A stretch of DNA of 42,715 nucleotides, taken from positions 1 through 42,715 of IMG/VR virus record IMGVR_UViG_3300042923_000243. One strand, given 5' to 3'. The notes below the pieces were generated by a model that searched no databases, had not been told where the DNA came from, and worked only from the letters and a program-made list of their open reading frames with translations. Numbering within the stretch: the first letter of the stretch is position 1; the number at the start of each line of letters is the position of its first letter. This DNA comes from a virus. A program made the position numbers and the translations under genes. This document shows, piece by piece, positions 2,955 to 22,873 of this stretch.

Positions 2955-3368
2955 TTAAAATGGCAGCATGCTTTCAAATTCTGCTGTGCTCATTTCATTT
3001 TGATCTAAATCCCTACATACATAAGGATAGCAATTTAAAATTATATTCTTATACTTTTTAAAAGCCTCATCATCAAATTTCTGCTCACCACTTTGCAAGT
3101 TGTTTAGTACTGCAACCACATTTTTTATATATAGATATGGATTTGTAAATTCGGTGACTTCTCTCCATCCATCTATGTAATCTTTAGGTCTTCTTGATTT
3201 TAAAATTCTATCGCAGTCCCCTTTGCAACATACCTTTATGTCTTTTATAGCCCTAGTATCTGCATCTTCATGAAATACTATTATTGACATACCTGGGTTA
3301 TCGAATAGATTTTTACCACATACATCGCACGTTAGTGGTTCGCTTTTATAAACATTTGATTTTTTCAC
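2955..3368 (-). CDS. Hypothetical protein with N-terminal zinc-knuckle-like cysteines
   Basis: The protein is 137 aa with a GTG start at 3368 directly after GGAGGGG. The N-terminal part has CDVCGKNLF followed about 30 residues later by VCCKGDCDRIL, a four-cysteine arrangement that looks like a small zinc-binding domain. The C-terminal half is acidic and helical. I cannot assign a family. It is the first gene after an excellent promoter (3398-3426) and is cut off from the replication operon by a terminator (3437-3467). Expression independent of the main early operon is therefore likely, as for accessory (moron) genes. Confidence 0.7.
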   Translation of the reverse strand: MKKSNVYKSEPLTCDVCGKNLFDNPGMSIIVFHEDADTRAIKDIKVCCKGDCDRILKSRRPKDYIDGWREVTEFTNPYLYIKNVVAVLNNLQSGEQKFDDEAFKKYKNIILNCYPYVCRDLDQNEMSTAEFESMLPF

Positions 3369-3397
3369 TTTACCCCTCCGTAAAATTATTTAATTGA

Positions 3398-4379: not shown

Positions 4380-5798
4380 CTAACCTGCAACATTCTCGAA
4401 TATTTCTTCTTTGTAGTTTGCTTCTACTAATGCCTTTGCTAATGGAGGACATACACTATTTCCACACTTAGCAACCTGTTCCGTTGTAGGATATAGATTG
4501 CCTTCACTATCTCTATCAATTATGTAATTATCCGGAAATCCTTGTGCTTTGAATAATTCATGCGGTTTCAGCATTCTCATTCCAATATCCACAATTTGAT
4601 ATTCAATCCCTTTTACAGTTACAATTCCGAATCTGTCTTTTGCAGTTATAGTTCTTAATGGCTGGTCTAGTCGTTGTCCTAAATCATTTCCGTTGCCATA
4701 ATACGTCATGAGAAACGTTCTAACCTCTCCTATATGCCCTGGACCAGCAACTATCGTATTCATTGGTTTATTTAAATCTCTGCCATCACAATTATTATTC
4801 ATTTGTATCAAGTGACTTGTAACAAGTCCTAGTCTGTCTTTGGTGGTTAATGTTGATACAGGTTCATCAATTCCGTTTCCACAACCTTCATAATAACCGC
4901 CAAAGTATTTTGTTAAGAATGGTGTAACCAGTCCATAACGGTTAGATGTGTCAAGTGTCATTATTGGTTTTCCTAGTTCTTGCCCTCTAAAGCCTTCTCC
5001 GTAGCTGTGATATTGAATTATAAACGGTTCTGGATTATCAATTACAAACTTTTGAATTCCCTTTGCAATACGTTTTAGTGTATTTTCTGCAAGTGGTTTT
5101 TTTCTGTCAAATATGCTTGGACAAGGTATTGACCAGTCTATGCACTCTGCTGCAGTTCGCCATGGCTTTAATAATCCGCATCTTACTTCAATTCCTTCAG
5201 GATCTCCATGGCTCGGCTCTGGCCATACTATTTGTTTACCATCACACCTTGCAATCATGAAAAATCTTTTTCTTGATGTAGGAGCTCCATAGTCACACGC
5301 TCTTAGCTCTCTGAAAGCCACTTTATAACCTTGTTTTTCTAATGCCTTGATAAATAGTTCAAATGTTTGTCCCTTCTTATTTGGATCAGGATATAAGTCT
5401 CCTTTTTCATCCTTAATTAATGGTCCCCATGTTTGAAACTCTTCTACATTTTCAAGAATAATAACTCTTGGATGAACAGCCTTTGCCCATTTAACAGCTA
5501 CCCATGCAAGCCCTCTTACATTTTTATCTACCGGCTTACCGCCCTTGGCTTTGCTAAAATGCTTGCAATCAGGACTAAACCATGCTAATCCTACAGGTTG
5601 ACCTTGCGTTGCTTCAATTGGATCTACTTGCCATACATCCTCTATATAATGTTTTGTATCAGGGTGATTTACTTGATGCATTTTAATTGCCATTTCATCA
5701 TGATTTATCGCTATATCAACACTTCTACCTATTGCCATTTCTATTCCTGTACTTGCTCCACCGCCACCGGCGAAGTTGTCCACTATTAACAATCTCAT
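4380..5798 (-). CDS. DNA (cytosine-5) methyltransferase
   Basis: This transfers methyl from S-adenosylmethionine to C5 of cytosine in DNA. Motifs seen in the 472-aa protein are I (DNFAGGGGASTG), IV with the catalytic cysteine (FSPDCKHFSKAKGG), VI (ENVEEF), VIII (RKRFFMIAR) and X (GNSVCPPLAKALVEA). Between VIII and X the recognition region contains four repeats of the form P-(x)2-T-(I/L)-x-x-x-x-R-x-G-x-V, about 45 residues apart. It has no restriction partner, so self-protection against host restriction is the likely role. An ATG behind AAGGAGGGG is preceded by a perfect 7-bp hairpin (5811-5828) that also holds the end of the upstream gene. Confidence 0.93.
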   Translation of the reverse strand: MRLLIVDNFAGGGGASTGIEMAIGRSVDIAINHDEMAIKMHQVNHPDTKHYIEDVWQVDPIEATQGQPVGLAWFSPDCKHFSKAKGGKPVDKNVRGLAWVAVKWAKAVHPRVIILENVEEFQTWGPLIKDEKGDLYPDPNKKGQTFELFIKALEKQGYKVAFRELRACDYGAPTSRKRFFMIARCDGKQIVWPEPSHGDPEGIEVRCGLLKPWRTAAECIDWSIPCPSIFDRKKPLAENTLKRIAKGIQKFVIDNPEPFIIQYHSYGEGFRGQELGKPIMTLDTSNRYGLVTPFLTKYFGGYYEGCGNGIDEPVSTLTTKDRLGLVTSHLIQMNNNCDGRDLNKPMNTIVAGPGHIGEVRTFLMTYYGNGNDLGQRLDQPLRTITAKDRFGIVTVKGIEYQIVDIGMRMLKPHELFKAQGFPDNYIIDRDSEGNLYPTTEQVAKCGNSVCPPLAKALVEANYKEEIFENVAG

Positions 5799-5828: not shown

Positions 5829-6557
5829 TTAATCCATACACTCACAAGGAATATTAAAATCATTATCTAAAAAGCTTATTTGATTTTTACTTTTCATGAC
5901 TTCTTCCCTTACGTCCTCTAAAGTGCAATCTTTAAATACTGTATGTCCTATTTTGTGTTCCATCTGTACTGCTCTTTCAAACTCTTCAGGATAATACTTA
6001 CATACTTGTTTAAAGTGACTTTTCCCGGCTTTAAAACATGGTATGCAGTTGTTGTGACTTAGATATTTATAAGGCTCTGGCAACTCAATTTTCCATTCAT
6101 CTTGGATAATTCTTTTAATATGTTCATTTGCTATTCCGCTTTCATATACCAAGAACTCTGTTTTATATCCTTTAACCTCAAGTCTTGCCATAACCTTCTG
6201 AATACGTCTATATTCATCAGTTCCAAAGCCATAATGTATATTTACCTCTTCAGCCATTTTCTTTAAGAATATATCCGTTTGTTTGATTTTAAGCTGTTGA
6301 GTACAGAAAGGAATATGAAAGCTTGGTAAACAGTTATTATCTTCTATAAGTTTCCATAGGTCCCTTCCATCCTCTTGCACCGTTATTGCTAACCCTAAAT
6401 ATTCAGCTACCTGTTGCCTGAATGTATCTGCTGTTGGATGCTCTGCATATGTTGGAGTATGCAATAAAATTGTGTTTTCTTTTCCGTATTTATCTATTAC
6501 TAGCTTAGCAGTATAAGCACTTGAAGCTCCACCACTAAACATTACTATTTGTTTCAT
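5829..6557 (-). CDS. PAPS-reductase-like adenine nucleotide alpha hydrolase
   Basis: The 242-aa protein from the ATG at 6557 (a GTG at 6566 is possible) has the ATP-pyrophosphatase P-loop near its start (MFSGGASSAYTAKL). It also has HTPTYAEHPTADTF, a GFGTDE motif and the C-terminal cysteine segment NNCIPCFKAGKSHF, ending in CECMD. This is the phage branch of the PAPS reductase/DndC-like family. The P-loop reads SGGASS, not the SGGxDS common in the family. Its chemistry in phages is unknown; sulfur or nucleotide transfer to nucleic acid is possible. Its neighbours are the C5 methyltransferase downstream and a hypothetical gene upstream. There is an unusual 180-bp noncoding leader (6558-6738). 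Confidence 0.82.
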   Translation of the reverse strand: MKQIVMFSGGASSAYTAKLVIDKYGKENTILLHTPTYAEHPTADTFRQQVAEYLGLAITVQEDGRDLWKLIEDNNCLPSFHIPFCTQQLKIKQTDIFLKKMAEEVNIHYGFGTDEYRRIQKVMARLEVKGYKTEFLVYESGIANEHIKRIIQDEWKIELPEPYKYLSHNNCIPCFKAGKSHFKQVCKYYPEEFERAVQMEHKIGHTVFKDCTLEDVREEVMKSKNQISFLDNDFNIPCECMD

Positions 6558-6738
6558 ACCAACCACTTACTTATCATAGTAATGTGGTTAATTATTTAGT
6601 TTGCTATAAAGCCACGACCTCAAATTTTATGCTGAAATGTCTCTATTCACTATCCAGCAACCTAGTTTCACTAGGATAGGTATTTCCCCTTTCTTTTCAT
6701 ATTTACCTCCTAAGGGGAGCCGAAGCTCCTTTTATCTT
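6558..6738 (-). other. Intergenic leader with hairpin-ribosome-site copy and possible gene remnant
   Basis: After the 6739 gene the minus strand shows a GGAGC-TTCG-GCTCC hairpin, then TTAGGAGG and an ATG (6699 region) that opens only 9 codons before a stop. The frame two bases over is open for about 20 codons (reading GEIPILVKLGCWIVNRD) but has no start. This suggests a small frameshifted gene. CTATCC/GGATAG and CTAG/CTAG inverted repeats could also fold within it. I see no promoter. Confidence 0.35.
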
Positions 6739-7232: not shown

Positions 7233-7676
7233 TTAAAATGGTATGTCCTCATCGTCCACTACATGAAAACCATCTTCACCGTCAAACGCTTCATTGAAAT
7301 AGCCTTCTGCGTCTACTGGCTTTCCATTTGTCTGCTTTGCTTGTCCTACAAACTCAATCCTGTCTGCTATTACATCAGTTGTGTATCTCTTTTCACCTGT
7401 TTGAGTTGTGTAACTTCCTGTATTGATTCTGCCGTGTACAGCACATTGACTTCCTTTGTTGAGATAATTTGCACAGTTTTCTGCTGTCTTGCCAAATACC
7501 GTTACGCCGATAAAGTCTGCAGTTTGTTTTCCCTGTGCAGCTGCTTCTTGCTTCTTGTCTTTGCTCATTTCTCTGTCTACTGCTAAGTTGAACTTTGCTA
7601 CGGCCATACCTGTTGATGGTATGAATTTTAGTTCTGGATCTCTAGCCAAACGGCCTATAAGTACAACGCTATTCAT
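7233..7676 (-). CDS. ssb: Single-stranded DNA-binding protein
   Basis: This coats single-stranded DNA during replication and recombination and recruits partner proteins. The 147-aa protein begins MNSVVLIGRLARDPELKF, the first strand of the OB fold. It continues through FNLAVDRE, FIGVTVFGKTAENCANYLNKGSQ and GRINTGSYTTQTGEKRY, all typical of bacterial and phage SSB. A short glycine-poor linker leads to the acidic tail VVDDEDIPF, the docking peptide for SSB partners. The length is slightly shorter than host SSBs. Its start overlaps the 3' end of the 86-aa gene before it. It supports the Rad52-like annealing protein and the replisome organizer of the same operon. Confidence 0.96.
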   Translation of the reverse strand: MNSVVLIGRLARDPELKFIPSTGMAVAKFNLAVDREMSKDKKQEAAAQGKQTADFIGVTVFGKTAENCANYLNKGSQCAVHGRINTGSYTTQTGEKRYTTDVIADRIEFVGQAKQTNGKPVDAEGYFNEAFDGEDGFHVVDDEDIPF

Positions 7677-8480: not shown

Positions 8481-9461
8481 CTAAAATAAACTCATTTGAT
8501 TTTCTTCTTCAATCACTGATTGACAATTCTTAACCGCCTGATTGTAGTAGCTTTCTTTTAATTCAATTCCTACAGCCCTTCGCTTCATCTTCAATGCTTG
8601 ATAAGCTTCAGAGCCTATTCCCAGAAAAGGTGTTAATACTATGTCTCCCGGATTGCTCCACAGCTCAATGGCTCTTTCTATAACTTGGAGCTGAAGAGGG
8701 CATATATGGCGTTCATCCCTTTCTTCTCTGGCTTCACTTCGATTTAATGTATAGCTTTGGTCTATATCCATCCATACAGGACTTGCATATCTTCGCCATA
8801 CTTGATGAGAATAAACCGGATCAACTTTTGCCATTGATATATCTCTGTGTTTCCTGCTATCAGTTAATGTTGGCTCTTTCTTTGGTGCTTCCGGTTCATC
8901 TTCACCTATAAATCTTATAAATCCGTCTGGATGTTTTATAGGTTCATCGTTATCACCTGGCTTTCTCATTGTAACCAAGTAATCAGGAAGTCCGTTCCTA
9001 CACATAGCAGAGTCTTTACATAATTGTTTGTGCATTAATCCAATAGCTTTTGTCCTTGTTGCTTCAACTAGTGGATCTTTCCATATAGCTGTTCTTGAAT
9101 GATATATAAATCCACAGTCTTGGAATAGTCTAATTAAATCTCCCGGAAAGTCCTGAAGCCCTATATAACCGTCACGCTCTTTCATTGCTGGTATATCCAT
9201 GCAGTGAACAGACATTAATCGTCCTGGCTTCAAAACCCTGAAAAGCTCCTCAACAATAAACCTAAACTGCTTGAAGAATTCTTCATTATTTCTGCAATTA
9301 CCTAAATCTCTGTCACTGTTTGAGTATGTGTACAAACTTGCAAACGGCGGACTGTAAATACTGAAATGGATGCTGTCGTCTGGAATACCTTTTAGTACTT
9401 CACAGCTATCGCCATTGTACAAACACATCCTATCCGTAATATATTGATTGTTTACTTTCAT
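8481..9461 (-). CDS. DNA N4-cytosine or N6-adenine methyltransferase
   Basis: The protein is 326 aa. The N-terminal catalytic motif IV is IYSPPFASLYTYSNSDRDLGN, and the SAM-binding motif I comes at the C-terminal end (LTPFLGIGSEAYQALKMKRRAVGIEL). This gives the beta-class order. SPPF is the form commonly seen in N4-cytosine enzymes, though N6-adenine enzymes also use (D/N/S)PP(Y/F/W), so the base modified is not certain. No restriction endonuclease is nearby. The start codon overlaps the stop of the helicase gene (TAATG), so both are translated together. Protection of phage DNA from host restriction is the likely role. Confidence 0.9.
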   Translation of the reverse strand: MKVNNQYITDRMCLYNGDSCEVLKGIPDDSIHFSIYSPPFASLYTYSNSDRDLGNCRNNEEFFKQFRFIVEELFRVLKPGRLMSVHCMDIPAMKERDGYIGLQDFPGDLIRLFQDCGFIYHSRTAIWKDPLVEATRTKAIGLMHKQLCKDSAMCRNGLPDYLVTMRKPGDNDEPIKHPDGFIRFIGEDEPEAPKKEPTLTDSRKHRDISMAKVDPVYSHQVWRRYASPVWMDIDQSYTLNRSEAREERDERHICPLQLQVIERAIELWSNPGDIVLTPFLGIGSEAYQALKMKRRAVGIELKESYYNQAVKNCQSVIEEENQMSLF

Positions 9462-17091: not shown

Positions 17092-17853
17092 CTATGCTAT
17101 ATTCTTGAACTTATTTACAAAGTATATCTGTCCCTTGCCTGTTACCTTTGGAGTCTTATTAACGCTTATGTGTCCATCAGCATGTGTTATCGAGGTCTCT
17201 TTAATCTCAAACAGTCCCAGGTCCATGCTGTATTGAGTTGGCATATTGTAATCAGTGCCTTTTCTTCTTATTAAATAACCATTGTTTCTCAGCCATTCAA
17301 ATAATCTGTTCTGTCCGATATCAGCACCGTTTTGATTCAATAATTTTGCTAACTCTCCAACAAGTATTGATGTTTTAGATGTTTGCACACTTTCCGCAAA
17401 TAAGACCATTGGTTTATTGCTTTCAATTTGCTTTTCAGCCTGCAATCTCTTTTCTCTTTCTGCTTTTAGATCTGTTGCAAGTCTTATGATCGTGTCTGGA
17501 TTTAATAAAGCTTCTTCAATTTTTTCAGGTGTCATATAAGCACCATGCTTTCTGATAGAAGGGAGAACTTCATCAAATACCCACTTTTCAAATTTCTCTG
17601 CTGATGAAAGCTTACTGTTTGTGATTAAGCGGTACATATCACCCTCTGTGATAAAAAGCATTTGTTGTATTCCACCACTTGTAGGTACTTCCATTTTGGA
17701 AACCCCTTTGCAGTGAGTATTAACCGCTTTGCTTGGGATGACATATCCTAATGCTTTTGCAACATCACTTCCACAGAATAAAATCTTTCCGGCTTCCTCA
17801 ATCGTTCTTATCTCTCCAAATTCTTGATTATTAAATATCTTTAGTTCGTTCAT
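17092..17853 (-). CDS. BRO/ANT-type phage antirepressor
   Basis: The protein is 253 aa. Residues 1-105 form a BRO-N domain (IFNNQEFGEIRTIEEAGKIL, LFCGSDVAKALGY, then EKWVFDEVLPSIRKHGAYMT). A coiled linker follows, then a C-terminal KilAC/ANT domain (ILVGELAKLLNQNGADIGQNR, LFEWLRNNGYLIRRKG, GKGQIYFVNKF). Antirepressors of this type neutralise the phage repressor or control early genes. An ATG follows AAGGAGG. It is the first large gene of the lytic arm after the Cro-like gene and a 55-aa gene. The terminator-like hairpin upstream (17911-17946) may delay its expression. Confidence 0.92.
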   Translation of the reverse strand: MNELKIFNNQEFGEIRTIEEAGKILFCGSDVAKALGYVIPSKAVNTHCKGVSKMEVPTSGGIQQMLFITEGDMYRLITNSKLSSAEKFEKWVFDEVLPSIRKHGAYMTPEKIEEALLNPDTIIRLATDLKAEREKRLQAEKQIESNKPMVLFAESVQTSKTSILVGELAKLLNQNGADIGQNRLFEWLRNNGYLIRRKGTDYNMPTQYSMDLGLFEIKETSITHADGHISVNKTPKVTGKGQIYFVNKFKNIA

Positions 17854-18216: not shown

Positions 18217-18522
18217 TTACACAGCTTTATTCTGAGCTATGATAGATATATAGCATTTAACTAAATCTTTCTGATTTTCTGTTAGTGCATCATATATCTT
18301 TGAAAAATTTCTTGATTCTTGAGATGGAAGAAATTCATCTGTGTTCAATAAATAATCTGTGCTTACGCAGAAATATTTAGCAACTGATAGAACTTTGCCT
18401 ATTGTAGGTTGATTGACATCCCATCTATGAATTGTCCCATTACCAAAACCTAGAATTCTTTCCAATTCTGAAATTGTAATATTTTTTGTTTTACATAAAA
18501 TTTTTATTTTTTCTAAAATCAT
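18217..18522 (-). CDS. Cro-like HTH regulator
   Basis: The protein is 101 aa from the ATG at 18522, behind a perfect AAGGAGGTG; a longer frame upstream to 18693 would use the operator region and is rejected. An XRE-type helix-turn-helix occupies residues 5-60 (ITISELERILGFGNGTIHRW, then VAKYFCVSTDYLL). The stretch LGFGNGTI is identical to that in the divergent repressor, so both probably read the same operators. It is the first gene of the minus-strand lytic transcript from promoter 18685-18713. Cro-like function is inferred from position. The short C-terminal part is helical and could dimerise. Confidence 0.83.
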   Translation of the reverse strand: MILEKIKILCKTKNITISELERILGFGNGTIHRWDVNQPTIGKVLSVAKYFCVSTDYLLNTDEFLPSQESRNFSKIYDALTENQKDLVKCYISIIAQNKAV

Positions 18523-18684: not shown

Positions 18685-18713
18685 ATTATACAAGATTATA
18701 TTCTTGCTGTCAA
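18685..18713 (-). promoter_or_regulatory. Lytic promoter (Cro side)
   Basis: The minus strand has consensus TTGACA and TATAAT with exactly 17 bases between. The spacer is operator O2 itself (CAAGA, 6 bases, TCTTG), so a repressor bound there would block RNA polymerase. It drives 18522 and the early operon. Confidence 0.88.
18691..18706. promoter_or_regulatory. Operator O2
   Basis: CAAGA, TTATAT, TCTTG. It fills the spacer of the lytic promoter. Confidence 0.8.
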
Positions 18714-18757: not shown

Positions 18758-19093
18758 ATGGATTTACGAGATAGAATTCGTGAGCTCGCTAAAAAGAAGG
18801 GATTAAGTTTGCCTAAGCTTGAAGAAGAGTTAGGTTTTGGCAATGGGACGATTGTAAAATGGGATAAAGCTAAACCGAATATTGATAAGCTAAAAAAAGT
18901 AGCTGATTATTTAGATGTATCTATAGACTACTTAGTCGACGGAAAAGAAATCGAGGATTCAGACCCCGATATTCAACTAATCAGAAGAGCAAGTAAAAAA
19001 ATGAATATAAAGCAAAAAGAAAAAATGATGGAATTACTAAAAATTTCATTTGAGGAATTATTTGATGATGAAATGGAGGATAAAGAACGATAG
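18758..19093 (+). CDS. CI/ImmR-like repressor
   Basis: The protein is 111 aa with an ATG behind AAAGGAGA. An XRE-type helix-turn-helix spans residues 4-60 (GLSLPKLEEELGFGNGTIVK, then LKKVADYLDVSIDYLVDGKE). The C-terminal half is helical and acidic, and suited to oligomerise. It lacks the S24 LexA-like self-cleavage domain. Inactivation therefore probably needs the metallopeptidase encoded next (19096), as with ICEBs1 ImmR and ImmA. It is the first gene of the plus-strand lysogeny transcript, with operators O1-O3 just upstream, so it should repress the lytic promoter and control itself. The recognition region matches that of the Cro-like protein. Confidence 0.9.
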   Translation: MDLRDRIRELAKKKGLSLPKLEEELGFGNGTIVKWDKAKPNIDKLKKVADYLDVSIDYLVDGKEIEDSDPDIQLIRRASKKMNIKQKEKMMELLKISFEELFDDEMEDKER

Positions 19094-19095
19094 TC

Positions 19096-20163
19096 TTGAC
19101 ACCAAATTATACTAGCGCAGTTAATCGCTCTGTTGAAGTGTTAGGTCAATACGGCATTAATGAGGCACCTATTGACCTAAGAATTATTATAAATCAAATC
19201 CCTAATATGCGAATTTGTTCTTATTCTGACTTTTCCAAATTAAATGGATGCTCAATTGATGAAATTATAGAGTTTTTAGGTAGTGAATTAGGGGCAATAG
19301 CTAAAGATTCCAAAAAGAAAAGATACGTTATATATTATAATGACACTAAATATAATCGTGGACTTGATAGGTTTACTGTAGCTCATGAACTTGGACATTA
19401 TTTTTTAAATCATTATGATAGAGTTGATAAAGCTGTACTTAATAGAGGTGGCTTTAACGAAAAAGAGTATCAATCTATAGAAAACGAAGCTAATTGTTTT
19501 GCACGTAATTTATTATCACCAGTACCTTTATATAATAGAATTATAAGAGATCCATTGACGTTTGAATGGAGAGTGATGGAGGCTTTTAATATTTCATATG
19601 AAGCTAAAAATTCAAGAATAAAATTCTTGCCACTTGATGAATATAGAGTAACGAGAGCACACATTAAATATTTTAACAATTATAAAATGCCATATTTTGA
19701 TTATTGTGCAAAATGTAATCATCCAATTGAAAAATTAACAAATTACTGTCCAATATGTGGCGGAACTGAATTAAGGACAATTTGGGATCCAGAAATAAGT
19801 GATGACGGTTGGAATATAGAAAGGAGAAAACCTATGTTTTATAATGGAATAGAGGTAGATAATGAATCAAAGGCAATAGTATGCCCTGTATGTAATAATG
19901 AAGATTCAAATCAAGGAGATTATTGTTCTATTTGTGGAACTTATATTGTAAACAGATGTACTAATACTGATTATCCTGGTAGAAGTGAATACGATGATGA
20001 ACCATGTGGTGCCTTATTAGATGGCAATGCAAGATATTGTACTCATTGTGGACAACAATCAACATTTCTAAGAGACGGGTTATTAAAACCTTGGAATGAA
20101 TCTAGCCACAATGAAACCGAAGTGAACATTTGGGATGCAGACAGCGAAGATATTCCGTTTTAA
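19096..20163 (+). CDS. ImmA/IrrE-type metallopeptidase with zinc ribbons and SSB-like tail
   Basis: The protein is 355 aa with a TTG start at 19096. Residues 90-140 form the peptidase core: RFTVAHELGHYFLNH with HExxH at 97-101 and ENEANCFA with a likely third ligand near 131. Known ImmA proteins cleave the adjacent phage or ICE repressor. Unlike the usual short ImmA, the C-terminal 155 residues hold three CxxC pairs of zinc-ribbon type: 204/207 with 218/221, 263/266 with 277/280, and 288/304 with 315/318. The last residues are DADSEDIPF, almost the same as the SSB tail DDEDIPF. It lies 2 bases behind the repressor, so the pair is co-translated. Confidence 0.88.
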   Translation: MTPNYTSAVNRSVEVLGQYGINEAPIDLRIIINQIPNMRICSYSDFSKLNGCSIDEIIEFLGSELGAIAKDSKKKRYVIYYNDTKYNRGLDRFTVAHELGHYFLNHYDRVDKAVLNRGGFNEKEYQSIENEANCFARNLLSPVPLYNRIIRDPLTFEWRVMEAFNISYEAKNSRIKFLPLDEYRVTRAHIKYFNNYKMPYFDYCAKCNHPIEKLTNYCPICGGTELRTIWDPEISDDGWNIERRKPMFYNGIEVDNESKAIVCPVCNNEDSNQGDYCSICGTYIVNRCTNTDYPGRSEYDDEPCGALLDGNARYCTHCGQQSTFLRDGLLKPWNESSHNETEVNIWDADSEDIPF

Positions 20164-20183
20164 TAATAGAAGGGAATGGTATA

Positions 20184-21680
20184 ATGATAGCAATTTATAC
20201 ACGTCAAAGTATAGATAAAAAAGATAGTGTCAGTATTGAAGTGCAAATAGAGTTTTGCAAGAAACAATTTAGTGATGAAGAATTCAAAGTATATAATGAT
20301 AAAGGTTATTCTGGAAGCAACATCAATCGACCAGCCTTCGAAGAAATGATTGATGATATTCATGCAGGAAATATAGAAAAAGTAATTGTATATAGATTAG
20401 ACAGAATAAGCAGGTCCTTACTTGACTTCGCCAATATCATAGAGATGTTTAATCAATACAATGTAGAATTTATAAGTTCAACTGAAAAGTTTGACACAGG
20501 AACTCCTATCGGACGTGCTATGTTAAATATTATAATGGTTTTTGCACAATTAGAAAGAGAGACTATTCAATTAAGAATTAAGGATAATTATTATTCTAGG
20601 GGAAAGCAGGGTCTTTTTATGGGAGGAAGAATTCCATTTGGTTATGTAAGAGAACCTTACCCTGCAGCTGGTAGAAAGGCTTCTACATATGCACCTAATC
20701 CAATTCATGCTGATATAGTCAAGAATATATACAAATTGTATTCAACCACACTCTCTACCGGTCAACTGACAGAATATTTAAATAAAATATTACCAGATGA
20801 ACCGTGGGCAAATACTAAAATTACAAGAATACTAAGAAATCCATGTTATGTTAAAGCAGATGCTGATATATACATGTATTATAAGAACCTTGGGGCTATA
20901 ATTGACAATGACTTAATTGACTTTAATAATATTAACGGATGCTTTCTATACGGGGATAGAAAGTCTAAAACAAAATTTAAAAAAGAGAATATAGAAGGGC
21001 AACATTTGTGTATATCTGTTCACCCTGGATTAGTTGATAGCAGCACGTGGCTTGCTTGCCAATATAAACTGGACAACAGTCAGTTTATAAGAAATACTGG
21101 CAAAGGTAAAGTAACATGGTTATCCGGCTTAACTAAATGTATTGATTGTGGTTATGCTATGGTGGCAAGAAGAACGGGAAAAACTGATGATAAAATTTAT
21201 TTCTACTGCAAGGGCAAATATGACTACAAGTGCTGTGATACTAATGCTACATGGAATACAAGAGAATTAGAAAATTATATTGAAGAACTTATTTTAAAAA
21301 AAATCGAGAATCTTAGGACTATTAATTTCAAAGAAGAAAATATTAATACATCTGAAATAAATGATATAAAATTAAAAATTGTTGGTATTGATGAAAAAAT
21401 TGAAAATCTTATTAACCAACTCCAAGATTCATCGACAGTAACAGCAAAATACATTAATGAGCGAATTGAAAAATTAGATTCTGAAAAAAAAGAATTAAGT
21501 AGTCAGATTAATAATCAACTAGGACATAAAATTAATAATCAAAAAATTATTGAGTTAGTGAATTCATTTTCATCATGGCAAGAATTAAGTTTTGAAGATA
21601 AGAAAAATTATATAAGGGTATTTATCAATAGGATATATTTAGGTAATAATAATATTGATATAGAATGGATAGAATACTAG
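20184..21680 (+). CDS. Large serine recombinase (phage integrase type)
   Basis: The protein is 498 aa from the ATG at 20184, behind AGAAGGG. The N-terminal resolvase domain begins MIAIYTRQS with the nucleophile at Ser9, then YRLDRISRS (about 70-78) and TPIGRAMLNIIMVFAQLERE. The recombinase domain follows (GRIPFGYVREP), then a zinc ribbon with Cys 319, 322, 342 and 350, and a coiled coil of about 75 residues before a short C-terminal tail. This domain order and the length are those of TP901-1-type integrases. It is the last gene of the lysogeny transcript. A 44-bp inverted-repeat site starts 15 bases after its stop and is the likely attP. Confidence 0.93.
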   Translation: MIAIYTRQSIDKKDSVSIEVQIEFCKKQFSDEEFKVYNDKGYSGSNINRPAFEEMIDDIHAGNIEKVIVYRLDRISRSLLDFANIIEMFNQYNVEFISSTEKFDTGTPIGRAMLNIIMVFAQLERETIQLRIKDNYYSRGKQGLFMGGRIPFGYVREPYPAAGRKASTYAPNPIHADIVKNIYKLYSTTLSTGQLTEYLNKILPDEPWANTKITRILRNPCYVKADADIYMYYKNLGAIIDNDLIDFNNINGCFLYGDRKSKTKFKKENIEGQHLCISVHPGLVDSSTWLACQYKLDNSQFIRNTGKGKVTWLSGLTKCIDCGYAMVARRTGKTDDKIYFYCKGKYDYKCCDTNATWNTRELENYIEELILKKIENLRTINFKEENINTSEINDIKLKIVGIDEKIENLINQLQDSSTVTAKYINERIEKLDSEKKELSSQINNQLGHKINNQKIIELVNSFSSWQELSFEDKKNYIRVFINRIYLGNNNIDIEWIEY

Positions 21681-21761: not shown

Positions 21762-22763
21762 CTATGCTGCCATAAACTGTTCATAGGCAATCTGGAGTTG
21801 CCTGTTGTTGGTCTTGGCATATATTTCAGTTGTGTTTATTTGCGTATGCCCCAGGATCTGCTGGATTAAGGTTATACTCATGCCGCGCTGCAGGGCTAAA
21901 GTTGCAAAAGTATGACGGAAAATGTGAGGGCTGATAGATTTCTTTATGCTTGTTCGTAGAGCTATCTTTTTTATTATTTTTTCAATACCTGACTTAGCCA
22001 GAGGTCTAAACGGTGAGCGCTCTCCCAGGAACAAACTATCACTGTCACCTTCCCGGCTATTCAAATATTCCTGCAGGTATAATTTACATTTGACTGAGAA
22101 GTAGACTGTTCTGTATTTATCACCCTTCCCATGAACAACCAGGCTGTTACTATTCCAGTTTATATCGGATACTTTAGCTTGTACAACTTCAGACACCCTA
22201 CATGCAGTAGAATATAAGAATTCAACCAATGTCTTTTCTTTGATATCTTCACACACATTCCTTACTGTCTCCAGCTCTTCAGCTGTTAAATGCTCCCTTA
22301 GATTCTTAACATCGACCTTTATATTTTTTAATCTGATTGTTGGGTCCTTTTCAATGATTTCTTCCTTGTACAGCGTCCCAAAGAAGCTTTTTAGCACACT
22401 CATTTTGCCGTTAATAGTAACTTTCGCATATGGTCGTTCTGATTGTATAATCGCGAAATAGCGCCTAATATCATTGACCGTAATTTGATTGACAGGCTTT
22501 AATACATACTTACTAAACATTGATAGTTCGTCTCTGTATCGCTGAATAGACTGTTGTGAAAGTCCTTCAAGTGACTTTAGTCCTAAGAAAAATGTTATTT
22601 TCTCCGGCAAGTCTGATACCATTAAGCTTGTCTCATTAGATGTTAAAGTGTAGTCATCCAGGTTCCTTTCTAAGATATCTTTGATAATCATGTTATCAAC
22701 TTCGAACCTCTCCTGAATCTCTGACATAATTTTGATGATTACTAATTCTTTGTGGTCCTCCAT
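21762..22763 (-). CDS. Tyrosine recombinase (XerC/D-like integrase)
   Basis: The protein is 333 aa from the ATG at 22763, behind AGGAGGG; a GTG at 22769 is possible. It has an N-terminal helical domain, then a SAM-like core-binding domain at about 50-140 (KITFFLGLKSLEGLSQQSIQRYRD). The catalytic domain has Arg189 (STACRVSE), Lys near 213, HIFRH with His280 and Arg283, His306 (ILGHTQ) and the nucleophile Tyr315 (TEIYAKT). All catalytic residues are present, so it should be active. It converges on the serine recombinase gene. Its leader (22764-22873) is structured, and repeats resembling arm sites lie upstream at 22986-23206. Confidence 0.93.
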   Translation of the reverse strand: MEDHKELVIIKIMSEIQERFEVDNMIIKDILERNLDDYTLTSNETSLMVSDLPEKITFFLGLKSLEGLSQQSIQRYRDELSMFSKYVLKPVNQITVNDIRRYFAIIQSERPYAKVTINGKMSVLKSFFGTLYKEEIIEKDPTIRLKNIKVDVKNLREHLTAEELETVRNVCEDIKEKTLVEFLYSTACRVSEVVQAKVSDINWNSNSLVVHGKGDKYRTVYFSVKCKLYLQEYLNSREGDSDSLFLGERSPFRPLAKSGIEKIIKKIALRTSIKKSISPHIFRHTFATLALQRGMSITLIQQILGHTQINTTEIYAKTNNRQLQIAYEQFMAA

Positions 22764-22873
22764 AAACACCCTCCTGTAAGTGTTATTTTTCCTGAATAAA
22801 AATGAGTAGGTTCGTGCTCAGGAAAGCACTAGAGATTGAATGATCAGTTCAACCTTAACCTACTCATATTATA
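22764..22873 (-). promoter_or_regulatory. Integrase promoter and structured leader
   Basis: On the minus strand TATAAT at 22868-22873, preceded by TGT (extended -10), leads into an 11-bp inverted repeat (arms 22802-22812 and 22857-22867). This encloses two small hairpins (GTGCT/AGCAC and TTGAA/TTCAA) and is followed by TTTTTATT. The loop TTTCCTG can also pair with CAGGAAA at 22788-22794. It could be an attenuator or an operator before the integrase start. Confidence 0.5.

Follow-up and report, generated by a model that had tools for sequence, protein, structure and literature searches.

A branch of zinc-ribbon ImmA-type proteases, represented in the window (the whole 42,715-nt stretch of viral DNA analysed, IMG/VR record IMGVR_UViG_3300042923_000243) by the product of the gene at 19096–20163 (Table 1), ends in a peptide resembling the C-terminal tip of SSB, and comparison of homologues indicates that this peptide is clearly selected. 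The ImmR-ImmA switch is already known, and the unreported part is the SSB-tip peptide on a zinc-ribbon ImmA: in line with the sequence-only reading, which knew of no described ImmA with such a tail, we found no description of an ImmA with an SSB tail and zinc ribbons in the literature searched, subscription journals lying largely outside that scope. By what route DNA damage is signalled to ImmA-type proteases is unsettled: some elements depend on RecA, and in others RecA is dispensable or represses the response (PMC12637031). The SSB-tip peptide adds to this question a concrete, removable part. Most relatives with zinc ribbons carry the peptide and none of those without ribbons does, a pattern that hints at a way in which prophages of this kind might detect DNA trouble. 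The reading that we prefer, and to which we give an even chance, is that the protease docks through its tail on SSB partners of the host, and that repressor cleavage would thereby follow ssDNA at forks.

Table 1. Features of the lysogeny locus, the tailed protease and the comparison SSB in the window.
Feature	Position	Strand	Basis or remark
Phage SSB ending VVDDEDIPF, comparison peptide	7233..7676	-	PF00436, 8.5e-31
Ant-type antirepressor	17092..17853	-	phrog_130, 1e-99
Cro-like HTH regulator, divergent	18217..18522	-	Counted from internal ATG
TTGACA-17-TATAAT promoter-like site, 12/12, early lytic direction	18685..18713	-	Consensus match only
immR-like repressor, 111 aa, HTH_3/HTH_19	18758..19093	+	Pfam, phrog; directly upstream of protease
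355-aa ImmA/IrrE-type metalloprotease with zinc ribbons and an SSB-like tail	19096..20163	+	Translation, Pfam, phrog, model, fold comparison
HELGH catalytic zinc-binding motif, residues 97-101	19384..19398	+	Sequence and alignment
ENEA, residues 129-132	19480..19491	+	Sequence and alignment
Zinc ribbon 1: C204, C207, C218, C221	19705..19758	+	Sequence and alignment
Zinc ribbon 2: C263, C266, C277, C280	19882..19935	+	Sequence, Pfam, alignment
Zinc ribbon 3: C288, C304, C315, C318	19957..20049	+	Sequence, Pfam, alignment
SSB-tip-like C-terminal peptide DADSEDIPF, residues 347-355	20134..20160	+	Disordered in model
Large serine integrase, downstream, same operon	20130..21680	+	Longest ORF, Pfam

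The protease has a Peptidase_M78 domain (PF06114, 4e-12, above the Pfam cut-off) with an HExxH motif and a downstream ExEA, which qualifies it as an ImmA/IrrE metalloprotease. Translation, alignment and Pfam bore out the features that the sequence-only reading had picked out, namely HELGH, ENEA, three zinc ribbons (12 cysteines) and the DADSEDIPF end. Across 46 aligned relatives, the HExxH motif residues as well as E129, E131 and A132 of the ENEA segment, which is the probable third metal ligand, are invariant, as are 11 of the 12 ribbon cysteines, with C304 nearly so; Pfam additionally matched the double zinc ribbon DZR (1e-7). The ribbon region is net acidic, so that ssDNA binding by the ribbons is not favoured. 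Translation begins at a TTG, a plausible but not certain start, given that about 16 nt separate it from the GGAGG upstream.

At the extreme C-terminus, the D-S-E-D-I-P-F of the window protease agrees with the SSB-Ct consensus of acidic residues followed by I/L-P-F behind a disordered linker, but differs from it in being placed on a protease, whereas that of SSB is placed on an OB-fold ssDNA-binding protein. A Pfam search found no OB-fold domain (PF00436) in the protease, which is not itself an SSB. The phage's own SSB and its DDEDIPF ending, to which the tail had been likened, proved correct, with the gene lying on the minus strand, a point the earlier comparison had left unstated. The AlphaFold model of the protease has a mean pLDDT of 86, falling below 50 over residues 341–350 and remaining about 50 onward to the C-terminus, and the tail is predicted to be disordered and accessible, as an SSB-Ct should be. 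The family phrog_19315, which has no annotated function, spans residues 3–343 (1.7e-68) but stops short of the tail.

The protease gene starts after a gap of two bases from the end of the repressor gene, and its 3′ end is overlapped by the longest ORF of the integrase, although the integrase itself probably starts at an ATG further downstream. Pfam detected no peptidase S24 self-cleavage domain in the repressor and, since this is a bare HTH protein, induction plausibly must pass through the protease. By adjacency and the non-S24 HTH repressor, the locus is, as read from its genes, an ImmR-ImmA switch with putative repressor cleavage. The promoter-like site faces the divergent genes for the Cro-like regulator and the antirepressor. 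A similar order of antirepressor, Cro, repressor, zinc-ribbon ImmA and integrase occurs in phages of Bacillus, Latilactobacillus and Streptococcus and in plasmid-borne elements of Bacillus and Cytobacillus, and a post-induction lysate is the recorded source of the tail-bearing Latilactobacillus phage TMW 1.706 P1. Where an ORF precedes immA (69 loci), it is mostly short and HTH-like by eye. On the far side of the window locus, a tyrosine recombinase gene (21762–22769, minus strand) adjoins the serine integrase gene, and the two face each other.

Relatives of the protease were obtained by six-row profile searches together with genome searches (1,843 genomes counted, with two overlapping phylum draws), as scans with a single protein, run on viral and on genome contigs, had found none. 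We defined ribbon-bearing homologues as having at least four CxxC after the HExxH (75 non-redundant sequences) and ribbonless homologues as having zero CxxC (76 sequences). If the tail recurred together with the ribbons, the sequence-only reading had argued, it would be selected, and this pattern was found: an exact PF end occurs in 46/75 ribbon-bearing homologues, or 49/75 with three further near forms, vs 0/76 ribbonless ones (Fisher 7e-21, with related sequences treated as independent). The residue before the PF is hydrophobic or aromatic in 41 of the 46. Seven members have one to three CxxC; a hydrophobic-PF end occurs in two of them and a near form in another. An independent genome draw that did not derive from the first pattern search gave tails in about 14 of 22 ribbon-bearing members and in no ribbonless one, and two extra members found through the ribbon module alone end in NDPPF and IDDLPF.

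The expectation that close homologues with the same ribbons would keep the tail was borne out only in part: 26/75 ribbon-bearing relatives lack it, among them the fairly close L009 and L185, although in L185 a zinc-ribbon protein encoded next to the ImmA has the tail instead. On a tree of the sequences without their final 12 residues, its root not fixed, the tail label needs about 16 changes and is clustered, with 2 of 500 shuffles equally low. These changes and the 26 tail-less members indicate that the tail is not essential to the module, and the distribution fits an ancient tail that was lost repeatedly, repeated gain being the alternative on an unrooted tree. We considered a frame-shift origin of the losses and rejected it: only two chance PF-stop readings were found in other frames among the 26, so that the losses are real sequence differences. 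In one subclade (L057, L060, L065, L189 and L202), an extra domain of ~100 aa replaces the tail and ends, for example, in CIKEYGQTIITNV.

Counted from the C-terminus, the 46 tails have L/I at position −3 in 36 cases and D/E at −5, −4 and −6 in 74%, 65% and 43%, respectively, with no consensus from −8 backwards. This profile matches the published SSB tip, D-D-D-I/L-P-F (PMC3000357), although it is less strongly acidic than the SSB consensus, as the frequency at −6 shows, and some tails are only moderately acidic (KEKLPF, YTQLPF, NYEVPF). The linker, counted from the conserved W333, has lengths of 5 to 124 aa and is unalignable, and the tail proline is encoded by all four codons (19 CCA, 16 CCT, 6 CCG and 5 CCC) and the phenylalanine by both of its codons. 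Because the tail is kept despite such a linker and such codon usage, it is strongly supported by these comparisons that the peptide, not the DNA, is conserved and selected. That the tail is a neutral remnant, e.g. of an ssb terminus that was captured, or a signal for stability with no link to DNA repair, would sit well with its repeated loss, but we hold this to be highly improbable, as amino acids have been retained through synonymous codon turnover behind an unalignable linker, and the tail is absent from ribbonless relatives and recurs on companion proteins.

These companions, found in L202, L185 and L057 (= L232), are neighbouring proteins of 119–137 aa, encoded beside immA, that are homologous to the last two ribbons of ImmA and end in SDDDLPF, INDLPF or NNPPF, and the ImmA of each of these systems is tail-less; L185 sits in the window protease's own clade. 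Since a companion carries the tail where the ImmA does not, the arrangement argues that the function of the tail is wanted by the system and may be able to act in trans, and the free-standing two-ribbon protein is possibly an adaptor. The companions also bear on a different account, in which the acidic tail would fold back onto the protease or its ribbons, block an ssDNA or repressor site, and be displaced by ssDNA or by the acidic C-terminus of the repressor. The predicted flexibility of the tail would permit such autoinhibition, and repressors with an acidic run and a hydrophobic end occur beside 24 of 69 ribbon-type proteases vs 0 of 63 ribbonless ImmA proteins. We nevertheless regard it as quite unlikely: blocking by charge would leave the terminal Pro-Phe unneeded, yet this is the most conserved part and the one that SSB partners read, the linker ranges widely in length, three systems bear the tail on a separate protein, and the window repressor lacks an acidic-hydrophobic end. 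The acidic repressor ends close in I, L or F (e.g. EDDDDDDDDDDDL, DDEHDF), and overlap with the start of immA may account for part of the pattern. We rejected them as a counterpart of the tail, because many loci show them overlapping the start of immA and the window lacks them, and kept them within the autoinhibition account only.

PF-type endings are also found elsewhere in the same loci, in 27 non-redundant hydrophobic-PF ORFs among ~8,100 ORFs of at least 80 aa. SSB and DUF669, the latter a distant SSB homologue (PMC8093625), form the largest nameable group among these 27, which points to the tail marking mainly ssDNA-handling proteins and the zinc-ribbon protease branch. Pfam confirmed DUF669 for two of these ORFs and several others look alike; two more are ATPases that are Sak4-like by eye, and some of the remainder are unrelated. 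Many minus-strand PF-ending ORFs of the relatives had been taken as SSB, of which only three score as such. The tail might instead bind replication or recombination enzymes that the phage itself encodes, and so couple repressor removal to phage DNA replication. The window phage does encode an SSB and a Rad52/22-like annealing protein, and related phages carry tailed DUF669 proteins and the Sak4-looking ATPases, but these genes are expected to be silent in the lysogen when the protease must act, and the same tail is found beside differing recombination sets, making this account very unlikely. As separate observations, a phage protein with another SSB-like tail, VPDENVPF or VSDEKVPF, is encoded by a minus-strand ORF of L017 (8655, 129 aa) and by ORF 7586 of L027, with no Pfam match for the L017 copy, and an ORF of 137–144 aa at 2955–3389 of the window (minus strand), also without a Pfam match, ends in AEFESMLPF.

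In its catalytic part, the protease is most similar by both structure and profile to CapP (7t5t), followed by IrrE/PprI (Foldseek 1e-4), including its ssDNA complex 8sln. The C-terminal half of PprI (8sln/3dti) is absent from the window protease, the Foldseek alignments covering ~174–185 columns with a TM of 0.31–0.32 by query length, and the zinc-ribbon half has no named relative in Foldseek searches of PDB and BFVD. We know of no zinc ribbons or SSB-like tail in PprI/IrrE. The Deinococcus protein shares the catalytic fold and the derepression by a protease-repressor pair upon DNA damage, and is directly activated by ssDNA (PMC10904395), but it has an unrelated C-terminal half and is a host regulator, whereas the window protease belongs to a phage. 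CapP of CapH-CapP likewise forms a protease-transcription factor pair that is DNA-damage responsive, as cited in PMC10904395, but governs an immune operon (CBASS control), and its profile match omits the ribbons and tail of the window protein. The ImmA proteins of ICEBs1, phi105 and TnSmu1 resemble the window protein in being M78 metalloproteases of integrative elements, encoded next to an HTH repressor. To our knowledge they are short and have neither zinc ribbons nor an SSB-like tail. The ICEBs1 protein nonetheless responds to DNA damage, upon which the repressor is cleaved (PMC11841131), and we count this against docking; the same cleavage has been proposed for TnSmu1 (PMC10233336).

As the protease of an ImmR-ImmA lysogeny switch, the window protein belongs to a widespread zinc-ribbon branch in which a selected SSB docking tip ends a disordered linker. 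In the docking reading, this tip would bind the conserved SSB-tip pocket of host genome-maintenance proteins such as RecO, PriA, RecG, RecQ and RecJ, among others, and in B. subtilis the SSB-Ct binds at least 12 such proteins (PMC3000357). Once docked, the protease would be at SSB-coated ssDNA where forks are stalled or damaged; there its PprI-akin catalytic domain would cut the repressor and the prophage would be induced. The ribbons probably serve to position the protease, either on the partner or on ssDNA. Pneumococcal ImmAR prophages respond, in differing ways, to the ssDNA-binding host proteins RecA and DprA, and ssDNA or an ssDNA-associated protein was suggested as the signal (PMC12637031), for which the SSB-tip tail offers a physical means.

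If the tail and SSB use one pocket, competition between them follows, and the same tail evidence, with its likeness to the SSB docking peptide, also fits a reversed arrangement in which, in undisturbed cells, the tail keeps the protease on free SSB partners (e.g. RecO) and so apart from the repressor, until ssDNA accumulates and DNA-bound SSB tips outcompete it and release it. Such sequestration seems unlikely, because low-abundance partners would need to hold the phage protein and many members are tail-less without obvious loss of the module. Returning to docking, we more tentatively speculate, with some doubt, that this prophage protease branch reads fork distress through the occupancy of SSB partners and not directly through RecA filaments, with a peptide that can be moved to a ribbon adaptor. 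If docking is true, the peptide links repressor cleavage to SSB partners at forks across a widespread branch, and the SSB tip is a portable docking tag beyond ssDNA-binding proteins.

Elsewhere in the window, three minus-strand genes (4380–5798, 8481–9461 and 5829–6566) possibly serve DNA modification or anti-restriction; judged by eye, two of the products are DNA methyltransferases and one is PAPS-reductase-like (DndC-like).
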